Below are positions 25,162-27,302 of a stretch of DNA of 64,000 bases, piece by piece. Position 1 is the stretch's first letter. Every line of letters starts with the position of its first letter. Origin of the DNA: Actinomycetota bacterium (lineage in GTDB: Bacteria > Actinomycetota > Acidimicrobiia > Acidimicrobiales > Ilumatobacteraceae); assembly GCA_009701715.1 (NCBI GenBank), contig WLJO01000009.1, forward strand, positions 21,932 through 85,931, in the 5' to 3' direction. A program made the position numbers and the translations under genes. A model generated the notes under the pieces. The model was not told the DNA's origin and ran no database searches. It was given only the letters and a program-made list of their open reading frames with translations.

Positions 25162-25665
25162 CTACGCCTTCACCCAGTTCTCCTCCACCCAGGCGCGCAC
25201 AGCGGGGGCGAGGTATGAGAGGTACTCGCCCGGGTACTCCCGGATGAGCGTCGCCGAGATGGGCACCGCGCTGCGGTCCGGGTCCACCACCACCGCCTCT
25301 GCGCCGAGGCGCCGAGCCAACTCGTCGATATAGAAGTCGGACGAGAACACGGCGTGCGGCCCGTCATCGGGGAACGGCCACTTGGAGCGGAACAGGTCGA
25401 TCCACTGGGCCCACAGTTCCTCGTCGTCGAAGTTCGTCTCGAGGTTGTGGTGCACCTCCACGACGGTTGCCTCGGGGGTCATGTCCTGGAGCCACTGCGC
25501 GCGTAGGGCGCCGGGCACCACCTCACCGTCCCGTGTGTTCACGAACACGACCAGGCGCTCGCAGCGCTGTGCCGCCCAGCCGATCACGAAGCGGTGGCCG
25601 AGGTGTGGTGGGCAGAAGCGGCCGACAATCAGGCCGGTTCGATAGCGGTCGTCGATCTCAGACAT
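25162..25665 (-). CDS. NadR/NMNAT-like nucleotidyltransferase
   Basis: A 167-residue cytidylyltransferase-superfamily protein with GRFCPPHLGHRFVI, the (H/T)xGH adenylylation motif, and ISATLIREYP, the ISxTxxR motif of NMN adenylyltransferases. It most resembles the NadR adenylyltransferase domain, without a kinase domain, so it probably makes NAD from NMN plus ATP or a related dinucleotide. Its SD GGAGGGG is buried in an 18-bp hairpin (25668-25714) that directly follows the upstream selenoprotein gene. Confidence 0.82.
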   Translation of the reverse strand: MSEIDDRYRTGLIVGRFCPPHLGHRFVIGWAAQRCERLVVFVNTRDGEVVPGALRAQWLQDMTPEATVVEVHHNLETNFDDEELWAQWIDLFRSKWPFPDDGPHAVFSSDFYIDELARRLGAEAVVVDPDRSAVPISATLIREYPGEYLSYLAPAVRAWVEENWVKA

Positions 25666-25715: not shown

Positions 25716-26216
25716 CTAGCTACCGGGAGAGGGGATGACTGTGACATCCATCTGCTCGGGCTCGAGACCGAGCACGATCAACACCTTCGAGAGCCCGTGC
25801 ACGAGTGCGAGCCCCACGCCGATCTCCACAATCTCGGGCTCGGAGAACTCCGCCCGCAGCGCTGCCTGCTGCTCGGGGGACGGGGCACCCGTCTCGTTGA
25901 GATACGCATCGGCGAGGATCAGGGCCCGCTTATGACGCTCCGGGAGTCCGCTGTCGGCCCACTGATCGGTGATCTGCTCGACGAGCTCCTCCGTGAGCCC
26001 TTCTTGCCTCGCGACCGCGAAGCGCAGCTTCTTTCAAAGACCGCAATCGGTGATGGTGGCGTTGCGCAGTCGCGCAACCTCCTTGATGGACTGCTCGACG
26101 AGGCCGTGGCTCCAGAAGTGTCCGTAGAGGTCACCGTAGGGCGTGCTGGAGAAGTACTCCGCTACGGCATTGATCGGCTTGCCGTCGGCGTCCCGAAGAC
26201 GGGGCGAGGTGGACAT
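25716..26216 (-). CDS. AhpD/carboxymuconolactone-decarboxylase-like selenoprotein (CxxU, in-frame TGA at codon 61)
   Basis: A 166-residue protein if the TGA at 26034-26036 is read as selenocysteine. Upstream is the family helix HGLVEQSIKEVARLRNA, then TDC(58)GL-U61. Downstream, in the same frame, is KKLRFAVARQEGLTEELVEQI, then HKRALILADAYLNETGAPS and VGLALVHGLSKVLIVLG, ending at TAG. Relatives have C-x-x-C here, so Sec replaces the second redox Cys. A hairpin 12 bases after the TGA has a bulged U and GGUC loop, like the E. coli fdhF SECIS. AhpD-like proteins act as peroxidase or disulfide reductase partners; the substrate is unknown. The start ATG overlaps the upstream stop (TGATG). Standard gene calling truncates this at 60 codons. 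A nonsense mutation is the alternative. Confidence 0.88.
26006..26025 (-). promoter_or_regulatory. Candidate bacterial SECIS element
   Basis: Minus-strand core CTTCGCGGTCGCGAG (26022 down to 26008): C-G, U-A, bulged U, then C-G, G-C, C-G closing a GGUC tetraloop (26016-26013). Counting the U of UGA as 1, the loop is at 21-24, against 22-25 in E. coli fdhF, where the bulged U17 and loop G23/U24 bind SelB. Two further pairs (G26025-C26006, C26024-G26007) can extend the stem past one unpaired base. Confidence 0.8.
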
Positions 26217-26650
26217 CAGATTCCTTCCACTGCGAAAACCCGGCGGAACTTGGTGAATCCGTCGAGCATGGCGATGTTCATGAGGAGGGCAACGGTTCCC
26301 TGTTCGCCGAGCAGGTGCTGGAGGCGAAGGATCTGGTCGTCGGTGATCGAGTGGTGATCGATGAGGAAGGCCTCACACACCTCGATCGAGGTGCGCTCCA
26401 CGTCGGACAGTGCAGCGTGCGAGTACCAGTTGGTTGCCTGGTCCACGAGTTCCGGATCCGCGGATGCCACGTACCCCTCGTTGCGGAGCAACTGGGCTGC
26501 GCGGATCTCCAGCAGCGTGCGCAGCCGGGGCCCAATGCTCGCTGCGGCGTGCGAGTCGAACGCCTCGAGATGCCCGGCGAGGTCCGGGCGCAATGCCAGA
26601 AGACTCTCGGCCGACGAGTCCGCAGCCGCGTTGATCCACGTTCCCCCCAT
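26216..26650 (-). CDS. AhpD/CMD-like protein, partner of the selenoprotein
   Basis: A 144-residue all-helical protein resembling carboxymuconolactone decarboxylase/AhpD folds: GPRLRTLLEIRAAQLLRNEGY, then DVERTSIEVCEAFLIDHHSI and GTVALLMNIAMLDGFTKFRRV. It lacks the CxxC motif, so it is probably a structural or substrate-binding partner of the selenoprotein encoded next, whose ATG overlaps its stop (TGATG). ATG 26650 is chosen because TACGCT lies 6 bases upstream (leaderless); the open frame upstream to 26755 runs into tag. Function is inferred from family resemblance only. Confidence 0.78.
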   Translation of the reverse strand: MGGTWINAAADSSAESLLALRPDLAGHLEAFDSHAAASIGPRLRTLLEIRAAQLLRNEGYVASADPELVDQATNWYSHAALSDVERTSIEVCEAFLIDHHSITDDQILRLQHLLGEQGTVALLMNIAMLDGFTKFRRVFAVEGI

Positions 26651-26681: not shown

Positions 26682-27302
26682 TCAGCCGGGGGGCACAAGC
26701 GCCACACGGGCGTCCAGACAGGCCTGACGCACGCAGCAACCCTCGAAATGATCATTGGTGAGCCCCATGGCCTGCATGAACGCGTACACCGTGGTTGGTC
26801 CCACGAACGACCAACCGCGCTTCTTCAGGTCCTTGGACATCGCTGTCGAGGCCGGGGAGACCGAAGGGATGGGGAACGCGCCCCCGGCAGGACGGTACGG
26901 CTCGGCCTCGAAGCGCCACACGTAGGCCGCCAGCGACCCGAACTCCTCGGCGAGCGCAATCACCCGGCGGGCGTTGTTGATCGTCGACTCGATCTTGCCG
27001 CGGTGGCGGACGATCCCGGCGTCGCCGAGGAGGCGCTCGACATCGTGCCCACCGAAGTTCGCCACTGCGAGTGCATCGAAGCCGGCAAAGGCGGACCGGA
27101 AGTTCTCGCGCTTGCGCAGGATCGTGAGCCACGACAGGCCCGACTGGAAGCCCTCGAGACACAGTTTCTCGAACAGCCTGCGGTCATTGAGCACCGGACG
27201 ACCCCACTCCGTGTCGTGGTAGTCGCGGTACTGCGCGTCCGGACCGGCGCCCCAGGTGCAGCGCTCGAGCCCATCCTCAGCCGCCCTGAGCCAGTCGCTC
27301 AC
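26682..27302 (-). CDS. tag: DNA-3-methyladenine glycosylase I (Tag)
   Basis: A 206-residue Tag-family glycosylase that removes 3-methyladenine from alkylated DNA. Hallmarks: RCTWGAGPDAQYRDYHDTEWG near the N-terminus with zinc-ligand Cys and His, LCLEGFQSGLSWLTILRKRENF, and a C-terminal HFEGCCVRQ with the other zinc ligands. The GTG start overlaps the TGA of the upstream cyclase gene (GTGA), so the two are translationally coupled. A longer reading to 27338 would run 12 codons into the cyclase gene. Confidence 0.94.
   Translation of the reverse strand: MSDWLRAAEDGLERCTWGAGPDAQYRDYHDTEWGRPVLNDRRLFEKLCLEGFQSGLSWLTILRKRENFRSAFAGFDALAVANFGGHDVERLLGDAGIVRHRGKIESTINNARRVIALAEEFGSLAAYVWRFEAEPYRPAGGAFPIPSVSPASTAMSKDLKKRGWSFVGPTTVYAFMQAMGLTNDHFEGCCVRQACLDARVALVPPG

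Follow-up and report, generated by a model that had tools for sequence, protein, structure and literature searches.

A predicted AhpD-like selenoprotein and its CxxC-lacking upstream twin in a 64,000-nucleotide stretch from an Ilumatobacteraceae genome

Background

The stretch considered here (the window) comprises 64,000 nucleotides (nt) of contig WLJO01000009.1 from an actinomycetotal genome of the family Ilumatobacteraceae (the host, assembly GCA_009701715.1). An AhpD-like gene on its minus strand runs for 60 codons to a TGA, continues in the same frame for 105 codons and ends at a TAG. Does this TGA interrupt a damaged gene or specify selenocysteine (Sec, U), and what would the product do beside the gene that overlaps its start? 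The codon-61 TGA in the window gene is a real observation, beyond chance. We consider it probable that it is read as Sec in a C-x-x-U active site, and that the product supplies catalysis in a pseudo-symmetric complex, the other half of which is a twin lacking CxxC, encoded just upstream. The relevant features are as follows.

25716..26216, minus strand: Sec-containing AhpD-like/CMD protein of 166 residues with U61; ATG at 26216, TAG stop ending at 25716
26034..26036, minus strand: in-frame TGA, codon 61, predicted selenocysteine; TGA in 87 of 95 distinct loci, a Cys codon in the other 8
26043..26045, minus strand: codon of Cys58, first residue of C-x-x-U; invariant across the 20 rows of alignment A1
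26006..26023, minus strand: predicted bacterial selenocysteine insertion sequence (SECIS) hairpin; stem of 7 base pairs (bp), GGUC loop at 26016-26013, 17 nt from TGA to loop
26216..26650, minus strand: partner, predicted AhpD-fold paralogue without CxxC, 144 residues; ATG at 26650, with an earlier in-frame ATG at 26755

Results

The original prediction of a hidden selenoprotein gave the right coordinates, the strand being minus, and the frame reads as it claimed, with the TGA in the context TDCGL-U-KKLRF as the last residue of C58-G-L-U61. Its exclusion of a frameshift also stands, since the same frame resumes at conserved sequence past the TGA. Against the Pfam CMD model PF02627 the window protein scores 21.7 (gathering cut-off 23), and four relatives in which enzyme and partner are fused score 23.3-32.5, above the cut-off. 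An NCBIfam scan of the window protein returned no model at its own cut-off; in sequence, the solved structures closest to it belong to AhpD-like proteins from Agrobacterium and Pseudomonas.

The main evidence comes from relatives. In a search of 199 genomes, the host among them together with relatives, the read-through protein matched in 80; loci were taken from the 30 best-ranked matches, and of the first 24, 23 hold one in-frame TGA and one holds none. Many of the weaker rows differ; 55 of the match rows lack an in-frame stop, and a number of these are paralogues resembling the partner. As a TGA listed inside a match may be the gene's own end, codons were counted only in loci with an aligned site. 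GTDB species genomes were then scanned with an alignment of 20 rows and the peptide pattern R-[LIM]-R-N-A-[RT]-x-[TV]-D-C. This confirmed 98 stretches, and the 80 best were used; they come from Acidimicrobiia, other Actinomycetota, Chloroflexota, Gammaproteobacteria and Myxococcia. The pattern stops at the first Cys and therefore does not select for TGA. Of the resulting 110 loci, 101 have TGA at the aligned codon, 8 have TGC and 1 has TGT; with 15 duplicates dropped, the 95 distinct loci give 87, 7 and 1. Cultured hosts with the Cys form are Desertimonas flava (L108) and Frankia nepalensis (L142). The Cys/Sec exchange that the original prediction proposed to look for is thus present, every exception being a Cys codon, and the reading as an AhpD-like CxxU selenoprotein is supported. 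A changed genetic code with TGA as Trp is rejected: the partner gene itself ends in TGA, and none of the eight exceptions is Trp. With the site masked, a quick tree contains five Sec/Cys changes, at least four of them on well-supported branches. A separate search of 395 genomes of the class with the alignment of the fused form gave matches in 62, almost all of them to the N-terminal half; none of these is counted in the 95.

Downstream of the TGA (105 codons), the window gene differs from its counterpart in the same-genus genome G001 by a nonsynonymous rate (dN) of 0.046 and a synonymous rate (dS) of 0.760; the codons before the TGA give similar values (dN 0.071, dS 0.549). This pattern points to purifying selection downstream of the TGA.

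The host search that had been suggested for selA, selB and selD found all three above their cut-offs (393.5, 271.3 and 348.9 bits), selA adjoining selB. The selD gene (L018:1501-2445, contig C34) has a single in-frame TGA of its own, at GAG-U-ACK, and is therefore probably a selenoprotein gene itself.

A SECIS of the fdhF type has a GGUC apical loop and a bulged U beneath a 3-bp upper stem. The original prediction described such an element, starting 12 bases after the TGA. A stem is present, GCUUCGC-GGUC-GCGAGGC with -10.2 kcal/mol, starting at base 11; its likeness to fdhF is limited to the spacing and the GGUC loop. The bulge is neither needed nor conserved: the stem is a continuous 7 bp, the C-G pair that the bulged form requires would become C-A in relatives with A at base 26, and the pair that the continuous stem makes at that same C covaries (C-G in 20 of 24 sequences, U-A in 4 of 24). 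The loop also varies among relatives (GGUC, AGUU, AGGU, CGUG), its second position being G in all rows of the two registers described below. The consulted portion of PMC13188914 gives for bacterial SECIS elements a loop of 3-9 nt with G within its first two positions, a stem of 4-16 bp, a spacing of 16-37 nt and a minimum free energy of at most -7.5 kcal/mol; the window hairpin lies within all of these ranges. Rfam at gathering thresholds found no match in the whole window.

Taken alone, the window hairpin is unremarkable, and we make the case for it because the comparison shows changes on both sides of the stem. Downstream of the TGA the sequences align without gaps, and two hairpin registers are found: the first, which includes the window, has a 7-bp stem over bases 11-28 after the TGA, and the second a 7-bp stem with the loop CGUGN over bases 18-36. 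At least six of the seven pairs form in 64 of the 87 TGA loci and in none of the 8 Cys loci. In register 1 (27 rows, 24 distinct) 98.8% of cells are paired and four of the seven pairs show both-side changes, a count reached by 9 of 500 shuffles; in register 2 (37 rows, 35 distinct) 97.1% are paired and three of seven pairs show such changes. Slid versions of the stems pair in 31-63% of cells. Since rows were picked for at least six of seven pairs, the paired percentage is favoured by selection, and the double changes and the contrast with the Cys loci are the better evidence. The covariation score and the number of both-side-changed cells are reached by none of 500 shuffles in either register, and the expectation that the hairpin would be conserved among homologues is borne out. 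Folding energy against synonymous resampling is only modestly low in the TGA loci (mean z -0.79; +0.06 in the Cys loci). The 23 TGA loci outside the registers comprise 11 with five of seven pairs in register 2, 11 of another shape (Chloroflexota loci and L078) and L111.

The original prediction spoke of a partner in the operon but did not recognise the upstream gene for what it is. The stop codon of this gene, TGA, shares bases with the ATG that starts the Sec gene (TGATG), and fold prediction suggests a degenerate AhpD-like twin, to which we would assign the role set out below. The twin is adjacent or fused to the enzyme in 92 of the 95 distinct loci, across Acidimicrobiia, Chloroflexota, Gammaproteobacteria and Myxococcia, and it lies beside seven of the eight Cys forms, the eighth (L048) beginning at a contig edge. 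Fused genes number nine, all in one clade, with the active domain N-terminal. Eight of the nine (L036, L041, L098, L107, L109, L110, L112, L128) follow a leuS or leuS-like frame at a distance of 27-39 bases; the identity of that frame comes from NCBIfam runs for L128 and L036 only.

The remaining observations concern the surroundings and the collected loci.

25162..25665, minus strand: next gene, same direction, cytidylyltransferase-like, outside the proposed complex; a similar frame lies downstream in L021, L023, L025, L026 and L030
24504..25139, plus strand: peroxiredoxin (213.3 bits with model PRK13189, against 211), oriented convergently to the Sec operon

The peroxiredoxin may be a redox partner of the operon. 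Five loci (L044, L045, L046, L047, L049) form a second, divergent Sec-AhpD group (e.g. RYHDCKTULSVRL) with its own upstream partner, and three genomes (G029, G045, G115) gave matches of both groups in the 199-genome search. Two metagenome-assembled genomes (MAGs), titled 'Bifidobacterium breve' (L085) and 'Klebsiella pneumoniae' (L137), carry genes that group with the window's Acidimicrobiia relatives and with Gammaproteobacteria MAGs; the two titles look doubtful. A distant homologue (G074:C8:95-457) has an in-frame TAG.

Discussion

All 20 rows of A1 share the core K45-E46-x2-R49-x-R51-N-A-x4-C58-x2-U61-x3-R65-F; loci L044-L049, which are more distant, show variation in it. The relay described for AhpD, Glu118-Cys130-His132-Cys133-His137, in which His132 is not absolutely conserved (PMC3141380, consulted in part), maps to E46, C58, L60, U61 and R65 of the window protein. 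We presume the following course. SelA, SelD and tRNA-Sec would produce Sec-tRNA, and SelB would bind the hairpin, whose loop starts 17 nt past the UGA; the UGA that closes the frame of the twin, some 60 codons before, would act as an ordinary stop. By analogy with AhpD, U61 would attack and C58 would resolve the resulting selenenyl intermediate, giving a Se-S bond, with E46 as base and R65 standing where AhpD has histidine, and a dithiol donor would reset the enzyme. The twin would occupy the second half of an AhpD-like dimer, where it may help to form the substrate pocket or else, like the inactive second domain of Sestrin, bind a ligand or protein.

Several results weigh against this reading. 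To begin with the machinery, tRNA-Sec was not found in the host assembly. All 12 Infernal matches fall below the cut-off (by ARAGORN the 8 with a locus are ordinary tRNAs for Cys, Ser, Arg, Leu and Met; 4 have no locus), two 20-kb host stretches, around selA/selB and around selD, hold none, and a pattern search of the host was empty. The absence of selC, which the original prediction had named as refuting, is thus literally the case in this assembly; the comparison of contigs makes a gap the likelier cause than loss. The tRNA is present in both same-genus genomes (G001 and G002). In G001 it occupies bases 577-672 of a 3694-base contig, of which only the last 569 bases match the host, at bases 275-843 of contig C66; counted back, C66 starts about 2.2 kb short of the syntenic place of the tRNA, and nothing in the host assembly matches the rest of the G001 contig, which is consistent with a gap. 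More widely, 43 of 61 genomes searched have a match of at least 58 bits, the host not among them (47 genomes exceed the 47-bit cut-off, some by ordinary-sized tRNAs).

As for the hairpin, the 51-nt region of the window is no more stable than shuffles (z 0.44), and 49 of 200 synonymous resamples fold equally well or better, so that its energy is weak as stand-alone evidence; all seven pairs arise by chance in 3.9% of synonymous resamples. The both-side pair count of register 2 is reached by 350 of 500 shuffles, pair types do not exceed shuffles in either register, 23 of the 87 TGA loci fall below six pairs in both, and only 14 of 87 (0 of 8 Cys loci) rank in the best 5% against synonymous resampling. 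Tree-based independent pairs, TGA against hairpin, number four only (median p 0.5). On the protein side, both AhpD relay histidines are absent (L60, R65), and the relay of the M. tuberculosis type is not found. Foldseek gave no match at E <=0.001 for either structure model (best 7.0e-3 and 1.2e-3). In the alignment behind the fused model the separate partners fall on the N-terminal half, so that the C-terminal half depends on nine rows. Finally, one locus (L120) has no partner within its examined stretch.

The alternative that survives best accepts the selenoenzyme but gives it a substrate other than peroxide, namely an intermediate from the degradation of acyl-CoA, aromatic or steroid compounds that would be reduced or dehalogenated; we regard it as a serious possibility, though the less favoured one. 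Recurrent neighbours in Gammaproteobacteria are of the acyl-CoA dehydrogenase and luciferase-like oxygenase types, and therefore the substrate may be a breakdown intermediate. The recurrent neighbour families outside the window's phylum also include a Rieske ring-hydroxylating oxygenase, an acetyl-CoA hydrolase/transferase and an AMP-binding enzyme (each family named by Pfam from one representative), and the debrominase Bmp8, of the same fold, is among the structural matches. Yet these neighbours are clade-specific, and the window pair lies beside the cytidylyltransferase-like gene and the convergent peroxiredoxin.

As to the dithiol donor of the proposed cycle, M. tuberculosis AhpD is reduced via lipoamide and Lpd. 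This fits the Chloroflexota locus L088, where the pair stands in a tight run with a dihydrolipoyl dehydrogenase (561.5 bits with TIGR01350), a short gene and a Rieske oxygenase. By clustering, nine such loci share the family of this dehydrogenase; its active-site motif is present in only L088 and L089 of 11 loci checked. The short gene (L088:1403-1951), between the dehydrogenase and the partner, encodes a 182-residue protein with no Pfam match.

Another proposal takes the enzyme for an ordinary AhpD-like/CMD selenoprotein of a known kind, with a twin that is merely co-inherited and acts elsewhere. We judge it unlikely. CxxU selenoproteins of both kinds are indeed published (cited below), and L120 does without a twin; however, the presence of the twin across four groups, and beside seven of the eight Cys forms, speaks against it.

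A nonsense mutation or pseudogene of this single genome, suggested by the literal in-frame stop and the missing tRNA-Sec, is refuted by a TGA kept over several phyla with only Cys as the alternative, by the selection downstream of it and by the presence of selA, selB and selD.

A gene caller that treats TGA as a stop splits the Sec gene into two fragments, and the enzyme is easily missed. The two SECIS registers and the repeated Sec/Cys switches within one family offer a natural experiment on the gain and loss of Sec.

Comparison with known systems

The original prediction held that the class is not wholly new and that the operon looks undescribed. As to the first, the window protein is near published families: AhpD-like (COG2128/YciW) and CMD (PF02627) CxxU selenoproteins have been predicted before (PMC1088965, PMC2398784, PMC9312934, PMC13188914, each consulted in part). 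Like our family, the selenoproteins of the metagenome surveys have the CxxU motif and Cys homologues, with a predicted SECIS shown for the AhpD-like one (PMC1088965, PMC2398784, PMC9312934); the consulted portions mention no dead twin or fusion, the comparison being one of descriptions. As to the second, no description of a Sec AhpD-like enzyme with a dead twin, the near-constant presence of the twin, or their fusion was found in the literature searched, which omitted most subscription journals. The most frequent NCBIfam match is NF053654, a YciW-related (seleno)protein, with 17 of 20 Sec proteins (E 0.001) and 33 of 47 partners (E 0.01); the window protein scores 31 bits against a cut-off of 310 and is not a member. 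The likeness to M. tuberculosis AhpD lies in the all-helical fold, a Glu 12 residues before the first Cys and a spacing of three between the two redox residues.

Corynebacterium ureicelerivorans and Comamonas aquatica have two-domain AhpD proteins that join an AhpD-like and a cysteine-less domain in one chain, with no Sec mentioned in the consulted portion of PMC11429811. Their active domain is C-terminal, whereas the fused selenoproteins, like Sestrin, have theirs at the N-terminus. This layout, active domain first and dead domain second, was seen by structure model in the fused relatives only, the window having two separate genes. In Sestrin2 the first Cys is retained (Cys125), with Leu128 in the second place, where Sec stands here. 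By sequence, membership in the Sestrins is rejected: PF04636 matched in none of six genomes and none of four fused proteins scanned with Pfam, no Sestrin is among the sequence matches in the PDB, human Sestrin2 is 10% identical, and the HSEKVH and DDYDY motifs were not seen by eye in alignment A6. That the pair is nevertheless a bacterial counterpart of Sestrin, a Sec AhpD domain locked to a ligand-sensing dead twin in a lineage that could mark a route of Sestrin origin, is an analogy to which we give little credence. Under it, the proximity of leuS and the Sestrin domain order of the fused form would point to a dead domain that may respond to leucine or to the charging of tRNA and link this to redox chemistry, much as Sestrin2 is a leucine sensor in animals. 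The pairing with a degenerate twin, fused in one clade, in any case presents a bacterial system with the active-plus-dead architecture of Sestrin that is accessible to in vitro test.
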